A stretch of DNA of 64,000 nucleotides from Coriobacteriia bacterium (GCA_030655755.1 JAUSOQ010000028.1:124001-188000), one strand, 5' to 3'. Shown: positions 43,966 to 53,826, numbered from the stretch's first letter. Notes: generated from the sequence alone by a model not told the origin. Program-made: numbers and translations.

Positions 43966-44229
43966 TCAGAGTCCGAACTCACGCTTGATGTCGCCCCAGG
44001 CGACGTTGTCCTCGTGCGCCTCGAGCAGCGCTTCATGGGCTTCGCCGATGTCTATGTCGTCCTCGTATCTCTCGATGAGCGCATCGAGTAAGCGAAGCTC
44101 ATCGATGGAGATGACCGCAGCCACGTCATCGTCGTGCCGGGTGATCACCGTGCGTTCTCGCGTGTACGCCGCCCTGTTGATGACCTCAGCAAGATCCTTG
44201 CGTGCATCTGCGACACTCATGCGTGCCAT
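43966..44229 (-). CDS. Phd/YefM-family antitoxin
   Basis: An 87-residue antitoxin. MARMSVADARKDLAEVINRA is the DNA-binding Phd/YefM start, followed by ERTVITRHDDDVAAVISIDE and an acidic, helical C-terminus that wraps the toxin. ATG 44229 has a strong AGGAGGT before it; the longer open frame to 44502 is antisense to hom. It also represses the operon. Confidence 0.9.
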   Translation of the reverse strand: MARMSVADARKDLAEVINRAAYTRERTVITRHDDDVAAVISIDELRLLDALIERYEDDIDIGEAHEALLEAHEDNVAWGDIKREFGL

Positions 44230-44241
44230 GACGATACCTCC

Positions 44242-44256
44242 TGTACAAGATGTACA
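44242..44256. promoter_or_regulatory. Antitoxin operator candidate
   Basis: Two copies of the palindrome TGTACA, 3 bp apart, cover the start of transcription between the -10 box and the ribosome binding site of the toxin-antitoxin operon. Confidence 0.5.
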
Positions 44257-44257
44257 A

Positions 44258-44286
44258 AATCTAGCATGCTGCGTTGCATATGACAA
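44258..44286 (-). promoter_or_regulatory. Promoter of the phd-relE type operon
   Basis: Read on the minus strand, TTGTCA (44281-44286) and TAGATT (44258-44263) are 17 bp apart, a good match to a housekeeping promoter. Confidence 0.55.
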
Positions 44287-44383
44287 GGAGAGATGCAGGG
44301 GAACGGCTGGTGTAATGAAGCCATCTGTGCTCGTCTCGGCTACAATAGCGTCTCGTAGTGGCACCTCTTGTGGAGGATGCATC

Positions 44384-45673
44384 ATGCGCACAGTCAACGT
44401 AGGTCTTATCGGTCTTGGCACCGTCGGTTCCGGCGTCGCGGAGATATTCGCGCGCCATGCAGGCGACTTCCGTCGTCGTGCGGGTGTCGACATCACGATC
44501 ACGCGCTTCGCAGATCGCGACGGCGCGCGCGCGGCTGCTCTTCAGATTCCCGCCGACCGCTTCACGACTGACGCTGCCGACATCATCAATGACCCGGAGA
44601 TCGACATCATCATCGAGCTCATCGGCGGGACCGGCGTGGCGCGGGATGTCGTGCTGGACGCGTTGCGCGCGGGCAAGAGTGTCGTCACCGCGAACAAGGC
44701 TCTGATGGCCAGTCACGGCCAGGAGGTCATGGAGACCGCCGAGGAGCACGGTGTCGACATCATGTTCGAGGCTAGCGTGGGCGGTGGTATCCCGATCATC
44801 GGTCCACTCAAGCACTCGCTCGTGAGTAACGAGATCCAGAGCGTCCTCGGCATCGTGAACGGTACGACCAACTACATGCTCACCCGCATGGCGGAGGACG
44901 GTCTGGACTACGACACCGCGTTGGCCGAGGCACAAGCGAAGGGTTTTGCCGAGGCGGACCCTACCGCGGACGTCGACGGTCTGGATGCGGCCGCGAAGAT
45001 CGCTATTCTGGCATCGATCGCTTTCAACTCGCGTGTCGTCTTCGGCCAGGTACCTGTTGAGGGCATCCGCAGTATCACGCCCGAGGACATCGCTTACGCG
45101 GAAGAGATGGGCTACGCGATCAAGCTCGTTGCCATCGCCCGCCGTGTGAACGGAAGCATTGACGTGCGCGTACATCCCACGATGATCCGTGCCGATCACC
45201 CGCTTGCGAAGGTGAACGGCGTCTACAACGCCATCTATGTCATCGGCGATTCGGTCGGCGAGACGATGTTCTTCGGCGAGGGAGCCGGCTCGCTCCCTGC
45301 CGCCTCGGCGGTCGTCGGCGACATCATCGAGGTCGCGCGCCATATCGGCAGCGGTTGCCTCGGTCTGGTGGGCTGCACCTGCAATGAGAAGCTTGCCGTT
45401 CGCGACATGGGCGAGCTCACCACCGAGTACTACGTCCGACTGCTCGTCGAAGATGAACCTGGCGTGCTCGCGCGCGTCGCCGGCATCTTCGGCGACAACG
45501 GCGTTTCCTTAGGCTCGGTGATACAGAAGCGTACCGATGAGTCGGGTGCCGCCGAGATCGTGTGGGTCACGCACCGTGCAGCTGAGCGCGATGTCCAGGC
45601 TGCTCTCGCGAGCATCCGTGCGCTCGACGCGGTGCAGACGGTCGGTTCGGTCATTCGAGTCGAGGACCTGTAG
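44384..45673 (+). CDS. hom: Homoserine dehydrogenase
   Basis: Reduces aspartate semialdehyde to homoserine. The 429-residue protein has the NAD(P) motif GLIGLGTVGSGV, TANKALM, FEASVGGGIPII, GIVNGTTNYML and AEADPTADVDGLDAA, plus a C-terminal ACT domain (YYVRLLVEDEPGVLARVAGI) for threonine feedback. ATG 44384 follows TGGAGGA; a TACAAT at 44341-44346 may be the -10 box. thrB follows by 4 bp; thrC, usually between them, is absent. Confidence 0.96.
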   Translation: MRTVNVGLIGLGTVGSGVAEIFARHAGDFRRRAGVDITITRFADRDGARAAALQIPADRFTTDAADIINDPEIDIIIELIGGTGVARDVVLDALRAGKSVVTANKALMASHGQEVMETAEEHGVDIMFEASVGGGIPIIGPLKHSLVSNEIQSVLGIVNGTTNYMLTRMAEDGLDYDTALAEAQAKGFAEADPTADVDGLDAAAKIAILASIAFNSRVVFGQVPVEGIRSITPEDIAYAEEMGYAIKLVAIARRVNGSIDVRVHPTMIRADHPLAKVNGVYNAIYVIGDSVGETMFFGEGAGSLPAASAVVGDIIEVARHIGSGCLGLVGCTCNEKLAVRDMGELTTEYYVRLLVEDEPGVLARVAGIFGDNGVSLGSVIQKRTDESGAAEIVWVTHRAAERDVQAALASIRALDAVQTVGSVIRVEDL

Positions 45674-45677
45674 CACG

Positions 45678-46595
45678 ATGGTGCGAACCGTCAGTGTCCC
45701 TGCCACTTCCGCCAATCTCGGACCGGGTTACGACTCGTTCGGAGTCGCCCTCACCCTGCGCAACGAGTTCACTGCCGGACTCTGTGATGCCTGGTCGGTG
45801 ACGGTTGAGGGCGAGGGCGCCGGCGTGTTGCCTGTCAACGTCGACAACCAGGTCGTCCGGGCAATGGCGAGAGTCTTCGCCGAGACCGGTCAGCCCGATC
45901 TGGCTGCAAGGGTGGTCTGTCGCAACGCGATCCCAGTCGGTCGCGGACTCGGTTCGTCCTCGGCGGCGATCGTCGGGGGTCTTGTGCTGGCCGATGCCCT
46001 GGTAAGCGGGGGGCTCGGTCAGGAACGTCTCTTCGAACTCGCCGTGGAACTGGAGGGCCACCCCGACAACGTCGCGGCGGCGCTCTTCGGCGGAATGACC
46101 GTATGTTGGGTGACTTCCGAGGGGCCGCATGCATTGCGAGTGGAGCCGTTCGCGGGACTTGCAGCGGTGGTCTCGGTCAGTGATTCTAAGTTCCCGACCT
46201 TGGCTGCACGTGCGGTGTTGCCGGATATGGTCCCGCACGCCGATGCGGCGTTCAACGTGAGTCGCGCGGCATTGCTCGTCACAGGGATTGCCGCCGGTGA
46301 CGCGACTCTACTGCGGGAAGGGCTTGCCGATCGCATACATGAGCAGTACCGTGCAGCGGTCGTGCCCGATCTCGAGGTCGTGAAGCGCGCGTTGCTCGAT
46401 GCCGGCGCCGACGGCGCGGCGCTTTCGGGCGCGGGTCCCAGCATCATCGGACTCGTGATGGCCGAGAACGCTGACGAGGCGCTAGGGCGCGCACGCGATA
46501 TCGTGCTGCGAGCGCATGCGTTGTTGGAGTCCGTCAAAGGACGTTCTCAGGTGCGCGTCCTAGGCATCGATCGCGATGGAGCCCTGCTCCTGTGA
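45678..46595 (+). CDS. thrB: Homoserine kinase
   Basis: Phosphorylates homoserine. The 305-residue GHMP kinase has SVPATSANLGPGYDSFG, PVGRGLGSSSAAIVGGL (ATP loop), EGHPDNVAAALFGG and ALSGAGPSIIGLV. ATG 45678 follows the hom stop by 4 bp. Threonine synthase must lie elsewhere. Confidence 0.95.
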   Translation: MVRTVSVPATSANLGPGYDSFGVALTLRNEFTAGLCDAWSVTVEGEGAGVLPVNVDNQVVRAMARVFAETGQPDLAARVVCRNAIPVGRGLGSSSAAIVGGLVLADALVSGGLGQERLFELAVELEGHPDNVAAALFGGMTVCWVTSEGPHALRVEPFAGLAAVVSVSDSKFPTLAARAVLPDMVPHADAAFNVSRAALLVTGIAAGDATLLREGLADRIHEQYRAAVVPDLEVVKRALLDAGADGAALSGAGPSIIGLVMAENADEALGRARDIVLRAHALLESVKGRSQVRVLGIDRDGALLL

Positions 46596-46605
46596 AGGCT
46601 GGCGT

Positions 46606-47994
46606 ATGGGCGGAGTGACGGGATTCTCGCGCGGTTCGACCCGTGATGTAGTCTCCGCCATCTGCGCTGCCCTTGCGGTGCCCACCCTGGCGCTTGCGCC
46701 TTCAGTAGGAGAGCGCGGTTGGGTCATGCTCGTCATCGCCTCGATCCTGGTCGCGGCTGCAGTGTTCATGGCATCCTGCGGATACACCTACGGTATGGCC
46801 GCGCTCTTCGCTACTACAGCACTCAAGAACGCTACCGTTCCTCTCGGCGATATCCGCGTGGACGCGTTCATCTCCATTCTGGTAGGCGTCCTCCTTGCGG
46901 GGCTGTTAGAAGTCGTGAAGCGGAGGCGGTTTCGGATTCCCAGGCTCTCTGTGCTTGAATGGGCGCTTCTCGGCCCGTTCGCGGCTGGTGTATGGTCGCT
47001 AGCTGCTTCCCTCGACCGGGCCACGACCCTCATGTGTCTGCTAAGGCTGCTGGTCTTGTGGGTGGCGGCGATAGCAGCGTCCCGGGCTCTGGTAGACGAA
47101 GCGGCGCGCAGGACCGCGCTGGTGGCGTTTATTGGAGCGGGTACCGTACTTGCCACTTTCGCCATCGTCCAGTGGTCGCTCCCTGACCTCGGGATCGGCG
47201 TTATACACATCCAAGCCAGTGCGCTACCCGGCATGATGCTCATCAGGCCGGCGGGGTTCTATCTCGATCCGAACTTCCTTGCGGCCCATCTCGCGCTCAC
47301 GTCCCTGGGTGCGCTTGCGCTCGCCGGTGTCGGCGGACGTGCACGGTGGTGGTTCGTTCCGGCGGCAGTGATGCTTGAGGGTGTAGTGCTCACGTTCTCA
47401 CGCTCGGCATGGGTGGCGCTGACACTCGGACTCGTCATACTGTTCGTAGTCGGTTCAAGACGGTCACGATTGCCTTTGATCGGCACCCTGGTCGTCGTGA
47501 TCATGGTCGCTGGAGCGCTCAACGGACCCGAGCTGCTGCTCAGCAGGGTCACATCGATGCTGTTGTTTGATGACGGGTCGTCGACCGCCACCCGGCTGTT
47601 CATGGCAGGATCGACAGTGGAGATGACATTCGACAGGCCGGTGTTCGGTACGGGACTCGGAGCGTACGCCGAAGCCTATCCTGAGTACCGTAAGCCGGGG
47701 GCGTTGCTCCGCGTGACGCATCCACACCAGGTCCCACTCGCGTTGATCGCCGAGACGGGCATCGCCGGCCTCGTTGCTCAGATCGCGCTGTTCACCGTTC
47801 TTCTCAGTGTCGTTCTCCGCAGATATCGCGCCGGTTTTACGGCGGTAGACGTGGCGGTGGTTACCGGGTTTGCGACACTGTTGGTCGGCAGCATGCTGCA
47901 GTACTTTCTGTACTTCAAACCGGCGTGGCTTTTGTGCGGACTGCTCGCAGCGGGCATGGAACGACCGACCGTGAAGCTACAGCGCGCCGAGTAG
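46606..47994 (+). CDS. O-antigen ligase/polymerase family membrane protein
   Basis: A 462-residue protein with about 11 membrane segments. The Wzy_C/RfaL signature is RPAGFYLDPNFLAAHLAL, FSRSAWVAL and FGTGLGAYAEAYPEYR with HPHQVPLALIAETG in the large outer loop. Such proteins polymerise or attach glycans at the cell surface. It begins 10 bp after thrB, without a good ribosome binding site, and interrupts the usual thrB-rho order. No glycosyltransferases are next to it. Confidence 0.88.
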   Translation: MGGVTGFSRGSTRDVVSAICAALAVPTLALAPSVGERGWVMLVIASILVAAAVFMASCGYTYGMAALFATTALKNATVPLGDIRVDAFISILVGVLLAGLLEVVKRRRFRIPRLSVLEWALLGPFAAGVWSLAASLDRATTLMCLLRLLVLWVAAIAASRALVDEAARRTALVAFIGAGTVLATFAIVQWSLPDLGIGVIHIQASALPGMMLIRPAGFYLDPNFLAAHLALTSLGALALAGVGGRARWWFVPAAVMLEGVVLTFSRSAWVALTLGLVILFVVGSRRSRLPLIGTLVVVIMVAGALNGPELLLSRVTSMLLFDDGSSTATRLFMAGSTVEMTFDRPVFGTGLGAYAEAYPEYRKPGALLRVTHPHQVPLALIAETGIAGLVAQIALFTVLLSVVLRRYRAGFTAVDVAVVTGFATLLVGSMLQYFLYFKPAWLLCGLLAAGMERPTVKLQRAE

Positions 47995-48100
47995 CGGTCT
48001 CCGTCGGGAGACTTGACTGGTTTCGCGCCTTCGGGGAAGAATGAAGTATCCCTTTTAGCGCCGCAGGGCATCGCATGCCGATACATCCTTCCAGGAGCAG

Positions 48101-48928
48101 TTGTTGAACGACAACAGACCCATCATCATCGCGCACATCTCAGACCTGCACTGCGGGTCTCAGTACCACATCCCGAGTCTGGCGACGCGCGTCGCCGACG
48201 AGATCAACGAGCTCAAACCAGATGCGCTCATCGTGACCGGTGACCTGACGGACATGGGATTTCGGCAGGAGTTCGAGGTGGCGCGCAGACTCATCTCGCG
48301 CATGAACGTCGATCGGGTGATGGTGCTACCGGGTAACCATGACGCGCGGAACGTCGGTGACATGCATTTCGAGGAGCTCTTCGGATCCCGGTCGACCGAG
48401 CTCGCGTTCGAGGGCGTGCGGGTGCTCGGCCTTGACTCATCGGAGCCGGATCTCGACAACGGCCGGATCGGTCGCGAACGCTATCGGTGGATCGAGGAGC
48501 GCTTCAGCGATCCGGACGAGTTCAAGATGGTCGCATTGCACCACCATTTGATCCCGGTGCCGGGAACCGGCCGCGAACGCAACATCGTCTACGACGCCGG
48601 TGACGTACTGCGCGTCCTGGCGAACAGCGGGTGCGATCTGGTGCTGTGCGGCCACAAGCACGTCCCCAACGTCTGGCGTCTCGAATCCATCGTTATCGTG
48701 AATGCGGGCACGGCTTGTTCCTACCGGTTGCGTGGCAAGACGAGGGCAAGTTACAACATCATCGAACTCCATCCCGATCGGGTGAAGATCGTGCTCAAGC
48801 ACCCGTTCGACAAGCCGGAGACCGTGGCGGACTTCCGCCGCACGATCAAGCGGGAGTGCGCCTGGCGACCTGATGCCGAGCTTCGCGAAGAGGAGAACCC
48901 GGACACGTCCGGAGTGTGGACTTCGTGA
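48101..48928 (+). CDS. Calcineurin-like metallophosphoesterase (CpdA-like)
   Basis: A 275-residue phosphodiesterase with all metal motifs: ISDLHCGS (DxH), VTGDLTD (GDxxD), LPGNHDAR, ALHHHLIP and CGHKHVPN. This is the class III cyclic-nucleotide phosphodiesterase layout. TTG start (48101 or 48104) behind AGGAG; TTGACT (48013-48018) may be a -35. The stop overlaps the cyclic 2,3-diphosphoglycerate synthetase start by 4 bp, so its true substrate may be the cyclic or open diphosphoglycerate made by the next two genes. That link is inference. Confidence 0.85.
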   Translation: MLNDNRPIIIAHISDLHCGSQYHIPSLATRVADEINELKPDALIVTGDLTDMGFRQEFEVARRLISRMNVDRVMVLPGNHDARNVGDMHFEELFGSRSTELAFEGVRVLGLDSSEPDLDNGRIGRERYRWIEERFSDPDEFKMVALHHHLIPVPGTGRERNIVYDAGDVLRVLANSGCDLVLCGHKHVPNVWRLESIVIVNAGTACSYRLRGKTRASYNIIELHPDRVKIVLKHPFDKPETVADFRRTIKRECAWRPDAELREEENPDTSGVWTS

Positions 48929-50271
48929 TACGGGCAGTCGCCCTCATCGATGGTGAACACTATCCGCCGGTCGTGCGTTTCGCGCTCGATGCGCTTGCCG
49001 CTGAATACGAGGTCGTTGCCGCTGCATTCATGGGTGGTACCGAGAAGATCGACCTTGCTGCGGGCGCGGCGGTCTACGGTGTGCCGGTCCTCTTCGCTGA
49101 GTCGGCAGAGGAGGCACTTCGCGATGCCATCGAGACATACGGGCCCGATCTGGTGGTCGATCTCTCTGACGAACCGGTACTCAGCGCTGCCGATCGTTTT
49201 CGTCTTGCCGGCATCGCGCTCGGCCATGGCGTTGCCTACCGTGGCGCTGACTTCCGCTTCGATCCTCCGTCATCCCCGGTGGTGACCCGCACACCCGCGC
49301 TTGGCGTTATCGGCACCGGCAAGCGCGTCGGCAAGACCGCTGTTTCGGCCTACATAGCCCGACGTCTGAAAGCCGCCGGCCGTGACATCGTGGTGCTTGC
49401 GATGGGTCGTGGAGGTCCGGCGGAGCCCGAACTCATTCGTGGGGATGAGGTGGCGTTGACCACGGAGGACCTACTCATGCTCGCCGCCCAGGGCAAACAC
49501 GCGTCATCGGACAACTATGAGGACGCCGTGATGAGCAGGGTGACGACGGTCGGCTGTCGTCGATGCGGTGGCGGCATGGCTGGCGGAACGTTCTTCAGCA
49601 ATGTGCCTGAAGGCGCGCTTCTCGTTGACTCTCTCGGCAAAGAGTTACTCGTGCTCGAAGGGTCGGGCGCCGCCATCCCGCCGGTCGCCTCCGATGCCGA
49701 CATCCTTGTCGTAGGTGCGGGACAAGGCGTTTCCTATGTTCGCGACTACTTCGGTCCCTATCGTTTGAAGCGTGCTGACGGCGTCATCATCGCCAACGCG
49801 GAGGAGCCGGTCGCCTCGGCCAGTGATGTCGCCAAGATCGTGGCTGCCATCCGTGCGCAGCGCGAGGACGTACCGATCGCGGTCACGACGTTTCGGCCGA
49901 AGCCGATCGAGGATGTGAGCGGCAAACGCATGTTCTTCGCGACGACCGCACCACAAGGAGTCCTGCCCATACTCGTTAAACATCTCGAGTCGGAGTACGG
50001 TTGCATCGTCATCGGCTCGAGTCCGAACCTCTCCGATCGTGCGTCTCTGCGCGTCGACATGGCCGCTTGCAGCGGCTTGTACGACCTGATGCTCACCGAG
50101 CTGAAGGCTGCCGCGATAGATGTCGTCGCAGTCGCAGGCGTCGAGTTCGGGGTGCCCACGGTCCTTTGCGACAACGTGCCTGTCTCCATAGGTGCGACCC
50201 ACATCGATGAGGTGATCGACCACGCGGTCGAAGTCGCGCTTGAGCGAGCGCAGGCCAGGAGGGGATCATGA
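48925..50271 (+). CDS. Cyclic 2,3-diphosphoglycerate synthetase
   Basis: This enzyme closes 2,3-diphosphoglycerate into the cyclic diphosphate with ATP, known from thermophilic methanogens. The 448-residue protein has the family start ALIDGEHYPPVV, the P-loop GTGKRVGKT (130-138), VLAMGRGGPAEPE, the VGCRRCGGG Cys region, GQGVSYVRDYFGPYRLKRAD and TFRPKPIEDVSGKR. GTG 48925 gives 4-bp overlap with the upstream stop; GTG 48916 is in frame but too near to GGAG. It overlaps the 2-phosphoglycerate kinase gene, which makes its substrate. I recognise the family from memory of its motifs. Confidence 0.82.
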   Translation: MIRAVALIDGEHYPPVVRFALDALAAEYEVVAAAFMGGTEKIDLAAGAAVYGVPVLFAESAEEALRDAIETYGPDLVVDLSDEPVLSAADRFRLAGIALGHGVAYRGADFRFDPPSSPVVTRTPALGVIGTGKRVGKTAVSAYIARRLKAAGRDIVVLAMGRGGPAEPELIRGDEVALTTEDLLMLAAQGKHASSDNYEDAVMSRVTTVGCRRCGGGMAGGTFFSNVPEGALLVDSLGKELLVLEGSGAAIPPVASDADILVVGAGQGVSYVRDYFGPYRLKRADGVIIANAEEPVASASDVAKIVAAIRAQREDVPIAVTTFRPKPIEDVSGKRMFFATTAPQGVLPILVKHLESEYGCIVIGSSPNLSDRASLRVDMAACSGLYDLMLTELKAAAIDVVAVAGVEFGVPTVLCDNVPVSIGATHIDEVIDHAVEVALERAQARRGS

Positions 50272-51218
50272 TGCCCGGTAGCGAGCCGATACTCATCAAA
50301 GACCAACGTCATGGGCTTCCGTATTCAAAGGGCCTGATGGCACAGGCGTTCTCGGCCACAGGTCTGTCGCCCGCCCGCTCGTACCTCGCTGCTCAGCGCG
50401 TGCAGGACGAGATGCGCGCCGAGGGGCTGCGCGAGATCACGCTTGAGGAACTGCACCGCCGAGTGATGAGCGTCCTCACCGAGCAGGCGGGCGAAGAATA
50501 TGCGCGCAGATTCGAGAAGCTGCAGGAGATCGGCAGGCTCGACAGAGCGTTCGTGGTGCTGGTCGGCGGGACGACCGGCGTGGGCAAGTCCACCATCGCC
50601 ACCGAGATCGCGCACCGGTTGGGCATAACCCGGATCGTCTCGACGGATTCCATCCGTGAGGTGATGCGTGGTATCTTTACAAAGGATCTCATGCCCGCGA
50701 TCTATGAAAGCTCGTTCAACGCGTGGCGCGGACTCCGGGTCCCGGTACCCCATGGCGCGAACCCTGTCATCGTTGGATTCCGCGAGCAGACCGCTGTCGT
50801 CGCCACGGGCATCAAGTCGCTGATCAAGCGCGCTTCGGTCGAGGGCGTCAGTATGGTGATCGAGGGCGTGCACCTCGTACCGGGTTACATCGACCCTTCC
50901 CAGTTCAAGAATGCATCTGTGGTGCAGTTGCTCATCGGCGTGGAGGACGAGGAAGCGCACCGGAGCCACTTCTACATCAGGGAGGTCCAGACGGACGGCA
51001 TGCGTCCGTTCGAGAAGTATCGTGCGAACTTCGGCAACATCCGGCTCCTCGGCCGATATATCGAGGACCTGGCCGCCGAGCACGACATACCGATCGTCTA
51101 TAGCCGCCAACTGGACCGTACGGTGGCCGAAGTGCTGGAACTGGTCGTCAACACGGTCATACGCAAAGAAGAGGAGTCGGCGGACAGCCGAACTCAGCCC
51201 GCAGAAGGGGGAGAGTAA
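50268..51218 (+). CDS. 2-phosphoglycerate kinase
   Basis: Phosphorylates 2-phosphoglycerate to 2,3-diphosphoglycerate. The 316-residue protein has an ATP-cone-like N-terminus (LIKDQRHGLPYSKGLMAQAF, about residues 6-28, and on) and a kinase core with VGGTTGVGKST (Walker A, K107), STDSIREVMR and VIEGVHLVPGY (Walker B). This two-part plan is that of methanogen 2PGK. ATG 50268 overlaps the synthetase stop. With it the window holds both steps from a glycolytic intermediate to cyclic 2,3-diphosphoglycerate. Confidence 0.85.
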   Translation: MMPGSEPILIKDQRHGLPYSKGLMAQAFSATGLSPARSYLAAQRVQDEMRAEGLREITLEELHRRVMSVLTEQAGEEYARRFEKLQEIGRLDRAFVVLVGGTTGVGKSTIATEIAHRLGITRIVSTDSIREVMRGIFTKDLMPAIYESSFNAWRGLRVPVPHGANPVIVGFREQTAVVATGIKSLIKRASVEGVSMVIEGVHLVPGYIDPSQFKNASVVQLLIGVEDEEAHRSHFYIREVQTDGMRPFEKYRANFGNIRLLGRYIEDLAAEHDIPIVYSRQLDRTVAEVLELVVNTVIRKEEESADSRTQPAEGGE

Positions 51219-51222
51219 ACGT

Positions 51223-51885
51223 ATGAAGTTCTTCCTGGATACGGCGAACATCGCCCAGATAGAGGAAGCCGCGTCGTGGGGCGTGCTCGCCGGCGTGACC
51301 ACGAATCCGACCCTCTACGCACGTGAGGGCGGGAAGCTCGCTGATTTCCACGCGCACATCCAACGCATCTGCGCGATCGTCGATGGGCCCGTCTCGGCGG
51401 AGACCGTCGGACTCACTCGCGATGAGATCGTGCGCGAGGGCGTGGAACTCGCTGCGCTCGCCCCCAACGTCGTGGTCAAGGTGCCGGTGATGGTCGAAGG
51501 CCTCGCCGCGACCCGCGCTCTGTTCGAGAAGGGCATCGACGTCAACATGACGCTGTGCTTCACGGTTCCGCAGGCGCTCATGTCCGCACGTGCCGGGGCA
51601 CGCTACGTGAGCCCCTTCATCGGTCGCTTCGACGACATCTCCGAAGACGGCCTCGAGCACCTCGGCAACATGATCATTGCGCTGAACAACTACGACTTCG
51701 GTCATCCGGTCGAGGTCATCGCGGCATCCATCCGTCACAACCAGCATGTCGTGGCCGCATCGCTGATGGGCGCCGACATCGCGACCGTCCCGTTCAACGT
51801 ATTAGAGAAGCTCGTCACGCATCCGCTCACCGACCGGGGACTCGAATCGTTCCTGGCCGACTGGGAGAAAGTGAAGAACTCATGA
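51223..51885 (+). CDS. Transaldolase/fructose-6-phosphate aldolase family protein
   Basis: A 220-residue small transaldolase: MKFFLDTANIAQIEEAASWG, GVTTNPTL, VVVKVPVMVEGL (Schiff-base Lys region), NMTLCFTVPQALMSARAGAR and SPFIGRFDD. It transfers a dihydroxyacetone unit between sugar phosphates. It starts 4 bp after the 2-phosphoglycerate kinase stop and overlaps rho by 4 bp. With rpiB (58284) it would cover non-oxidative pentose reactions. Confidence 0.93.
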   Translation: MKFFLDTANIAQIEEAASWGVLAGVTTNPTLYAREGGKLADFHAHIQRICAIVDGPVSAETVGLTRDEIVREGVELAALAPNVVVKVPVMVEGLAATRALFEKGIDVNMTLCFTVPQALMSARAGARYVSPFIGRFDDISEDGLEHLGNMIIALNNYDFGHPVEVIAASIRHNQHVVAASLMGADIATVPFNVLEKLVTHPLTDRGLESFLADWEKVKNS

Positions 51886-53210
51886 GTTCACGTCCACGCA
51901 AGAGAGGTCGCCGCGGCAGTGGCCAGCCGGAACAACAAGGACCGTTGGTCAACCGTGCCGAGCTGGAGCAGAAGACCGTGGCCGAGCTCCGGCAGATGGC
52001 GACCGAGCTTGAGCTCGACGTCAAGGCGCTCAAGAAGAAGGACGAGATCGTCTCGGCGGTCTATGACTCGAAGGTGAAGGCCGAGGGATTCATCGGGGTG
52101 CTCGGCATCCTCGACGTCCTGCCCGAAGGGTACGGCTTCATCCGCACGAGCGGCTATCTGCCGGGCGACACCGACGTCTACTGTTCGATGTCGCAGGTGC
52201 GTCGCTTCGAGCTTCGTCGCGGTGACATGATCAAAGGTCAGGTGCGTCCGCCCAAGGACAGCGAGAAGTACCCGGCCCTGCTCAAGGTGATCACCGTCAA
52301 CGGGCAGGAGCCCGAGGAGAGTAAGAAGCGCAAGAACTTCCGCGATCTCACGCCGGTCTATCCGGATGACAAGTTCACATTGGAGCGCGAGAATCCGCAG
52401 GCGCTCACATCGCGCATCGTCGACCTCGTCGCGCCGATCGGTAAAGGGCAGCGCGGTCTGATCGTCTCGCCACCGAAGGCCGGTAAGACGACGATCCTCA
52501 AAGACGTCGCGGCATCCATCGCCGAGAACAACCCCGAAGTCTACCTCATGTGCCTGCTCGTCGATGAGCGGCCCGAGGAAGTCACCGACATGGAGCGCTC
52601 GATCAAGGGCGAGGTCGTGTCCTCCACCTTCGACATGCCCTCCGAGAACCACATCGCGGTGTCCGAACTTTTGATGGAGCGCGCGAAGCGTCTTGTCGAA
52701 GCCGGCTACGACGTCGTCATCCTGCTCGACTCGATCACCCGCCTCGCCCGTGCGTACAACCTGGCGACACCGGCGTCGGGTCGTATCCTCTCCGGTGGTG
52801 TCGACTCCACAGCGCTCTACCCGCCGAAGAAGTTCTTCGGCGCCGCGCGCAATATCGAGGACGGCGGTTCGCTCACGATCCTCGCGACGGCGCTCGTCGA
52901 CACGGGCTCCAAGATGGACGAGGTCATCTTCGAGGAGTTCAAAGGCACGGGCAACATGGAACTGCGTTTGGATCGCAAGCTTGCCGACCGGCGGATATTC
53001 CCCGCGATCGACGTCATCGCTTCCGGCACGCGTAAAGAGGAGCTTTTACTCGATCCGGTCGAGGCGCCGTTCATATGGAAGCTCCGTCGCGTGCTGCACT
53101 CGCTGGATTCAGGTCCGGCCATCGAGCTGCTGCTCGACAAGCTTCGCCAGACGAAGAGCAACCGCGAGTTCCTTGCGGCTATCTCCAAGACGAAGACGAA
53201 CGGATACTAG
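51882..53210 (+). CDS. rho: Transcription termination factor Rho
   Basis: A 442-residue hexameric RNA helicase. The N-terminus is a short basic arm ([12 protein letters not shown]), then a Rho-N region and the RNA-binding cold-shock domain ([20 protein letters not shown]), the P-loop SPPKAGKTT (from 196), [29 protein letters not shown] and [17 protein letters not shown]. It lacks the long Arg-rich insert of many actinobacterial Rho proteins. Its stop is followed by a short direct repeat and the rpmE promoter. Confidence 0.97.
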
Positions 53211-53766: not shown

Positions 53767-53793
53767 CCGCCGGTCGTCTGCGCTGCTATGATG

Positions 53794-53826
53794 GGGAGGC
53801 GGAAAGACTCGCCTCCCTTTCGTCTT
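53794..53826 (+). terminator. Terminator after rpmE
   Basis: GGGAGGCG and CGCCTCCC form an 8-bp stem with an 8-nt loop, followed by TTTCGTCTT. Confidence 0.55.

Follow-up and report, generated by a model that had tools for sequence, protein, structure and literature searches.

A conserved actinobacterial gene cluster for predicted cyclic 2,3-diphosphoglycerate synthesis, with a metallophosphoesterase as candidate hydrolase

In this analysis we describe a gene cluster in the window, by which we mean the whole stretch of 64,000 nucleotides analysed, from a Coriobacteriia bacterium. Three overlapping plus-strand open reading frames, reported in an earlier note at 48101-51218, were found at these coordinates. 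They encode a metallophosphoesterase (MPE), a predicted synthetase of cyclic 2,3-diphosphoglycerate (cDPG), here called cDPGS, and a predicted 2-phosphoglycerate kinase (2PGK). The locus has the following features.

46576-47994: gene for an O-antigen-ligase-like (Wzy_C) membrane protein, between thrB and the MPE gene
48013..48042, plus strand: promoter-like site TTGACT-18-AAGAAT from a consensus scan, in the 106-base gap 5' of the MPE gene
48101..48928, plus strand: MPE, calcineurin-like metallophosphoesterase, 275 aa, TTG start with GGAG upstream; candidate cDPG (or 2,3-DPG) hydrolase
48539..48580, plus strand: MPE motif HHHLIPVPGTGRER, residues 147-160, a metal-ligand His block followed by an Arg/Glu signature
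48925..50271, plus strand: cDPGS from its likelier start (open reading frame first stated as 48916-50271), E 1.6e-123 to 8ORK
49312..49338, plus strand: cDPGS P-loop GTGKRVGKT, holding a Lys-Arg pair and Lys-Thr
50268..51218, plus strand: 2PGK, 2-phosphoglycerate kinase, 316 aa, matched by the NCBIfam 2PGK models
50343..50513, plus strand: residues 26-82 of 2PGK, an N-terminal region that is ATP-cone-like (PF03477 at E 3e-4, slightly under the gathering score)
50565..50594, plus strand: 2PGK Walker A motif GGTTGVGKST, most residues invariant in 33 homologues
51223..51885, plus strand: fsa/talC, fructose-6-phosphate aldolase/transaldolase-like (TIGR00875, 252 bits against a cut-off of 246)
51882..53210, plus strand: rho, its start overlapping the fsa stop (ATGA), within the open reading frame 51555-53210
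53793..53818, plus strand: terminator-like hairpin with a 10-pair stem, 3' of rpmE

The second GTG of the cDPGS reading frame, at 48925, gives a 4-base overlap (GTGA) with the MPE stop. Because this is the usual overlap and -4 junctions are likewise found in many relatives, we consider 48925 a likelier start than 48916. A gap of 4 bases separates 2PGK from fsa/talC, the fourth gene of the conserved cluster, which follows 2PGK in almost every Anaerosomatales locus and at several loci elsewhere. The earlier note had placed the genes between thrB and rho. Neither of these is a direct neighbour, as a membrane protein gene follows thrB and fsa/talC precedes rho. A homologue of the membrane protein gene occupies the same place in some, but not all, relatives. 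The promoter-like site has 9 of 12 consensus matches, which is not above chance, and the hairpin after rpmE is a possible end of the transcription unit. No RNA element was found near the operon, with no Rfam match between 43000 and 55000. Further upstream, a minus-strand open reading frame (43966-44502) adjoins the homoserine dehydrogenase gene, and by eye its C-terminal part resembles a Phd/YefM-type antitoxin.

The cDPGS has a full-length match to the solved enzyme of Methanothermus fervidus (8ORK/8ORU). Its residues 6-444 align with residues 6-455 of 8ORK at 46% identity, over the N-terminal dimer domain and the P-loop domain. The residues that bind 2,3-diphosphoglycerate (2,3-DPG), Mg and ADP were named in the M. 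fervidus structure paper (PMC10690619). All 11 placeable ligand residues are identical in the window protein: E45, K145 and R146, which contact 2,3-DPG, T150 and D208, which bind Mg, and K46, K149, E305, T353, E404 and K406, which complete the set of residues binding 2,3-DPG, Mg and nucleotide. The paper's P335 was not placeable, position 335 being Phe in both proteins by the numbering used. In the P-loop, the Lys-Arg pair corresponds to K145/R146 of M. fervidus, and Lys-Thr binds nucleotide and Mg. The ligand residues are invariant or nearly so in 54 members of the family. A second cDPGS structure, PDB 9SXB, is 43% identical to the window protein and has the same catalytic residues except for E305, which is replaced by D; it lies on a long separate branch of the cDPGS tree.

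For the kinase, the best-matching subfamily is 2PGK, with E 2e-93 (313.6 bits) for PRK12337 and E 1.6e-89 (300.3 bits) for PRK04220, against 163 bits for PRK12338 and 84 bits (E 1e-23) for the mevalonate-3-P 5-kinase model. Both scores lie below the curated cut-offs of 603 bits for PRK12337, which models a longer protein, and 343 bits for PRK04220, and we therefore call the protein a divergent bacterial 2PGK homologue and not a certified equivalog. With the M. fervidus homologue it has 36% identity and 30 of the 35 family-invariant residues in common. The AlphaFold (AF2) model has a pLDDT of 87, and a fold search with it returned generic P-loop kinases only. The ATP-cone-like region might be a regulatory domain that senses ATP or dATP.

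The earlier note had staked its reading on family membership of these two proteins. Both match their families with the catalytic residues kept, and both enzymes of the archaeal route from 2-phosphoglycerate (2-PG) via 2,3-DPG to cDPG are present with intact active-site residues, as in M. fervidus and other Methanobacteria. From these sequences, the operon very probably directs cDPG synthesis. The arrangement differs from the archaeal system: in this anaerobic actinobacterial host the genes of the two predicted enzymes overlap with that of the MPE in a single operon, whereas homologues of the operon genes are scattered in M. fervidus. Automatic database annotation of bacterial cDPGS probably exists. 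If so, the homology is old news, but the module and the hydrolase proposal are not.

The MPE matches the Pfam family Metallophos (PF00149, E 5e-20) and has the metal-binding motifs DxH, GD, GNHD, H and GHxH, at D15, H17, D48, N79-H80, H147/148, H185 and H187. Across 34 operon-linked MPEs 54 residues are invariant, including the metal ligands and a GTGRER motif. The segment of residues 147-160 (HHHLxxxPGTGRER) is invariant in these proteins except at positions 151-153, and, judging from the alignment, the Arg/Glu signature that follows the His block is diagnostic of the subfamily. The AF2 model of the MPE (pLDDT 84) has Rv0805 and GpdQ as nearest solved folds, with TM-scores of 0.65-0.72 by query length. 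A calcineurin fold and a two-metal site are thus shared with the class III cyclic-nucleotide phosphodiesterases and glycerophosphodiesterases (CpdA, Rv0805, GpdQ), but the label CpdA-like given to the protein earlier goes too far. It scores 39.6 bits against a CpdA equivalog cut-off of 225, and carries both GTGRER and a GHKHVPxxW block that are missing from GpdQ. An identity with CpdA is ruled out by the cut-off and the motif. Calcineurin-fold enzymes cleave phosphodiesters and, in families like LpxH and ApaH, phosphoanhydrides, so that an opening of the cDPG anhydride by the MPE is chemically plausible. We consider it likely that the MPE acts on cDPG or 2,3-DPG, and give cDPG itself as substrate slightly better than even chances.

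The investigation of the taxonomic distribution shows that the cluster is not a peculiarity of one genome. In the Anaerosomatales (Coriobacteriia), cDPGS is found in 57 of 61 genomes from many families of the order, and almost all loci read retain the gene order MPE-cDPGS-2PGK-fsa, commonly with -4 overlaps. Overlapping genes in the same order are found in Anaerosomatales, Aquicultor and Gaiellales. None of the three genes was found in the sampled Coriobacteriia genomes outside Anaerosomatales. Among 296 sampled Actinomycetota genomes, cDPGS is present in 163, the MPE in 162 and 2PGK in 163, with all three in 156, so that their co-distribution is nearly complete; one extra cDPGS match, at E 6e-4, was discarded from this count. 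Both cDPGS and the MPE occur in 159 of these genomes, cDPGS only in 4, the MPE only in 3 and neither in 130. As genomes of one phylum are not independent, Fisher p-values for such tables overstate the evidence and only rank the association. The MPE gene immediately precedes cDPGS, on the same strand, in 118 of the 129 genomes with both places among the matches listed, and a chance adjacency is not credible given this number. There are exceptions: one family (f30) has MPE and cDPGS side by side but 2PGK at another place, and in another (f20) it is the MPE that is separate. The coupling with a phosphoesterase, one of the suggestions of the earlier note, is therefore stronger than claimed.

The same note described the genes as inserted into a housekeeping block, which we do not find to be the case: the arrangement is ancestral to Anaerosomatales and is found across Actinomycetota. 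From this distribution and the kept gene order we conclude that the cassette is old and mainly vertically inherited in Actinomycetota. In the cDPGS tree, the backbone of which is unresolved, the window sequence belongs to an Anaerosomatales clade of 15 rows with an SH-aLRT of 100, separate from that of the methanogens, and a recent transfer from methanogens is not supported. A 2023 structural paper restricts both cDPG and the synthetase to hyperthermophilic methanogens (PMC10690619). The framing of this pathway as one of thermophilic methanogens is too narrow for the genes, which are phylum-wide in Actinomycetota, with cDPGS in more than half of the sampled genomes (163/296), including mesophilic lineages.

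Orthologues of the MPE are also found in archaea. An MPE with the TGRER motif, unlinked to cDPGS and at 38-52% identity, is present in most of the archaeal genomes that have both cDPGS and 2PGK, and the motif is conserved in nearly all archaeal orthologues. In 152 Methanobacteriota genomes, the MPE and cDPGS are both present in 112, both absent in 15, with cDPGS only in 15 and the MPE only in 10. The association is looser than in Actinomycetota. The 15 genomes without either gene may represent one loss, since most carry neighbouring labels, and some genomes without cDPGS and MPE keep 2PGK. One genome, which we take as M. fervidus, encodes a cDPGS identical to the crystallised one, and it holds two TGRER MPE paralogues (L152:2163-2906 and L153:1853-2674). 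One of these lies beside a NAC-alpha-like gene, an arrangement also seen in several Methanobacteriaceae loci. At L149:1480-3039, the M. fervidus 2PGK gene adjoins a different, smaller metallophosphoesterase of 212 aa, YfcE-like by eye. In a Methanolliviera MAG (L154:741-3158) the MPE orthologue lies, by eye, between two genes for PstS-like phosphate-binding proteins; this points to phosphate, as a single case.

Taken together, we consider it somewhat probable, on the evidence of the genes and their distribution, that the cluster encodes a make-and-break cDPG cycle which stores phosphate, energy and carbon, and in which the MPE is the candidate hydrolase. By family and residues, 2PGK would phosphorylate 2-PG to 2,3-DPG. 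The cDPGS, with its intact catalytic residues, would then spend another ATP on joining the 2- and 3-phosphates in a cyclic phosphoanhydride. The MPE, a two-metal calcineurin fold with the family-specific Arg/Glu motif beside its metal ligands, would re-open the ring to 2,3-DPG, as its linkage, co-distribution and fold suggest, and perhaps remove a further phosphate, so returning phosphate and carbon to gluconeogenesis. The cDPG pool would most likely be a turnover reserve that branches off at 2-PG, and ATP might control it by way of the ATP-cone-like region of 2PGK. For the reserve role taken by itself we see the chances as evenly balanced.

We know of no gene that has been assigned to cDPG hydrolase activity. 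A cDPG hydrolase activity which is membrane-bound and inhibited by K+ and Pi has been described in Methanothermobacter (review PMC1224877). In M. thermautotrophicus (Van Alebeek 1994; Sastry 1992, cited in PMC1224877) it carries out the same step as proposed for the MPE, but the MPE has no obvious membrane segment and looks soluble, which counts against the assignment. So does the imperfect association in methanogens, with 15 cDPGS-only and 10 MPE-only genomes. A bolder proposal would be that archaea and bacteria alike use the TGRER MPE as their cDPG hydrolase, the one for which a gene is missing, and that cDPG is a widespread phosphagen, compatible with mesophilic growth, in roughly half of the sampled Actinomycetota. 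The cycle would then be ancient and shared, and cDPG no mere extremolyte of methanogens; we put this whole proposal forward tentatively, at a little less than even chances. In the open-access papers searched we found neither a measurement of cDPG in a bacterium nor a bacterial cDPG pathway. If cDPG is made in Actinomycetota, a solute seen as "exotic" and archaeal would turn out to be a common metabolite of bacteria, with a testable role in the storage of phosphate and energy, and there would be a candidate gene for a hydrolase that, since the early 1990s, has been known by its activity only. This energy-rich phosphate compound may be an overlooked store of this kind in bacteria.

Another possibility is that cDPG is a thermoprotectant or compatible solute, a role proposed in hyperthermophilic methanogens, with the MPE trimming the pool on cooling. 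In methanogens the cDPG level does follow growth temperature (PMC10690619), and some Anaerosomatales are thermophilic, one cultured member growing optimally at 47-60 C (PMC9686372). However, the order in which nearly all genomes carry the genes also includes Anaerosoma tenue with an optimum of 30 C (PMC9686372), and cDPGS is found in MAGs with isolate names pointing to palsa and lake (L066, L075) and in Methanobrevibacter genomes, while M. smithii accumulates cDPG (PMC1224877). We regard this explanation of the cluster as improbable, and thermoprotection is unlikely to be the general role of cDPG. The presence of the genes in mesophilic lineages is our reason to prefer a reserve to a heat protectant.

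Slightly less probable still is that cDPG acts as a regulatory signal, made by cDPGS and broken down by the MPE as its dedicated phosphodiesterase. The tight linkage of making and breaking enzymes would suit such a role, as would a fold close to class III cyclic-nucleotide phosphodiesterases, but the cluster holds no candidate receptor or effector, its neighbours being fsa and rho, and archaeal cDPG reaches tens to hundreds of mM where measured (PMC10690619), which is atypical for a messenger. We give a similarly small chance to the chemistry being kept on another substrate, so that the product would be another cyclic pyrophosphate. We found no assayed bacterial member of the family, and Bipolaricaulota genomes and one Bacillota MAG have a cDPGS homologue with neither 2PGK nor a TGRER MPE, in a different cluster with ABC transporter genes and a permuted cofactor-independent phosphoglycerate mutase (iPGM); the cDPGS family is therefore not functionally uniform. 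Against another substrate in the window, the residues that contact the substrate do not vary, and in Actinomycetota 2PGK is co-inherited.

Finally, 2PGK, which by family assignment makes 2,3-BPG, might supply this cofactor to a cofactor-dependent phosphoglycerate mutase (dPGM) and the cluster control its level, but we reject this as highly improbable because the window's genome has iPGM and no dPGM, as likewise reported for Anaerosomatales isolates (PMC9686372): iPGM is present in 5 of 5 genomes examined, and the dPGM model TIGR01258 has no match in the window's genome and only a sub-threshold match in 1 of the 5. The reserve cycle is the reading that we retain for the actinobacterial cluster.

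The other cDPGS cluster, in Bipolaricaulota, a Thorarchaeota and a Bacillota MAG, combines the cDPGS homologue with a PhnS2/U2/T2-type ABC importer (L082:2165-8890, L077:233-6007, L109:5968-12815, L102:945-6238). In L077, L082 and L109 it also contains a protein of about 530 aa that resembles a circularly permuted iPGM, with profile positions of about 211-504 first and 1-131 after. This cluster is possibly a scavenging module that runs cDPGS in reverse.
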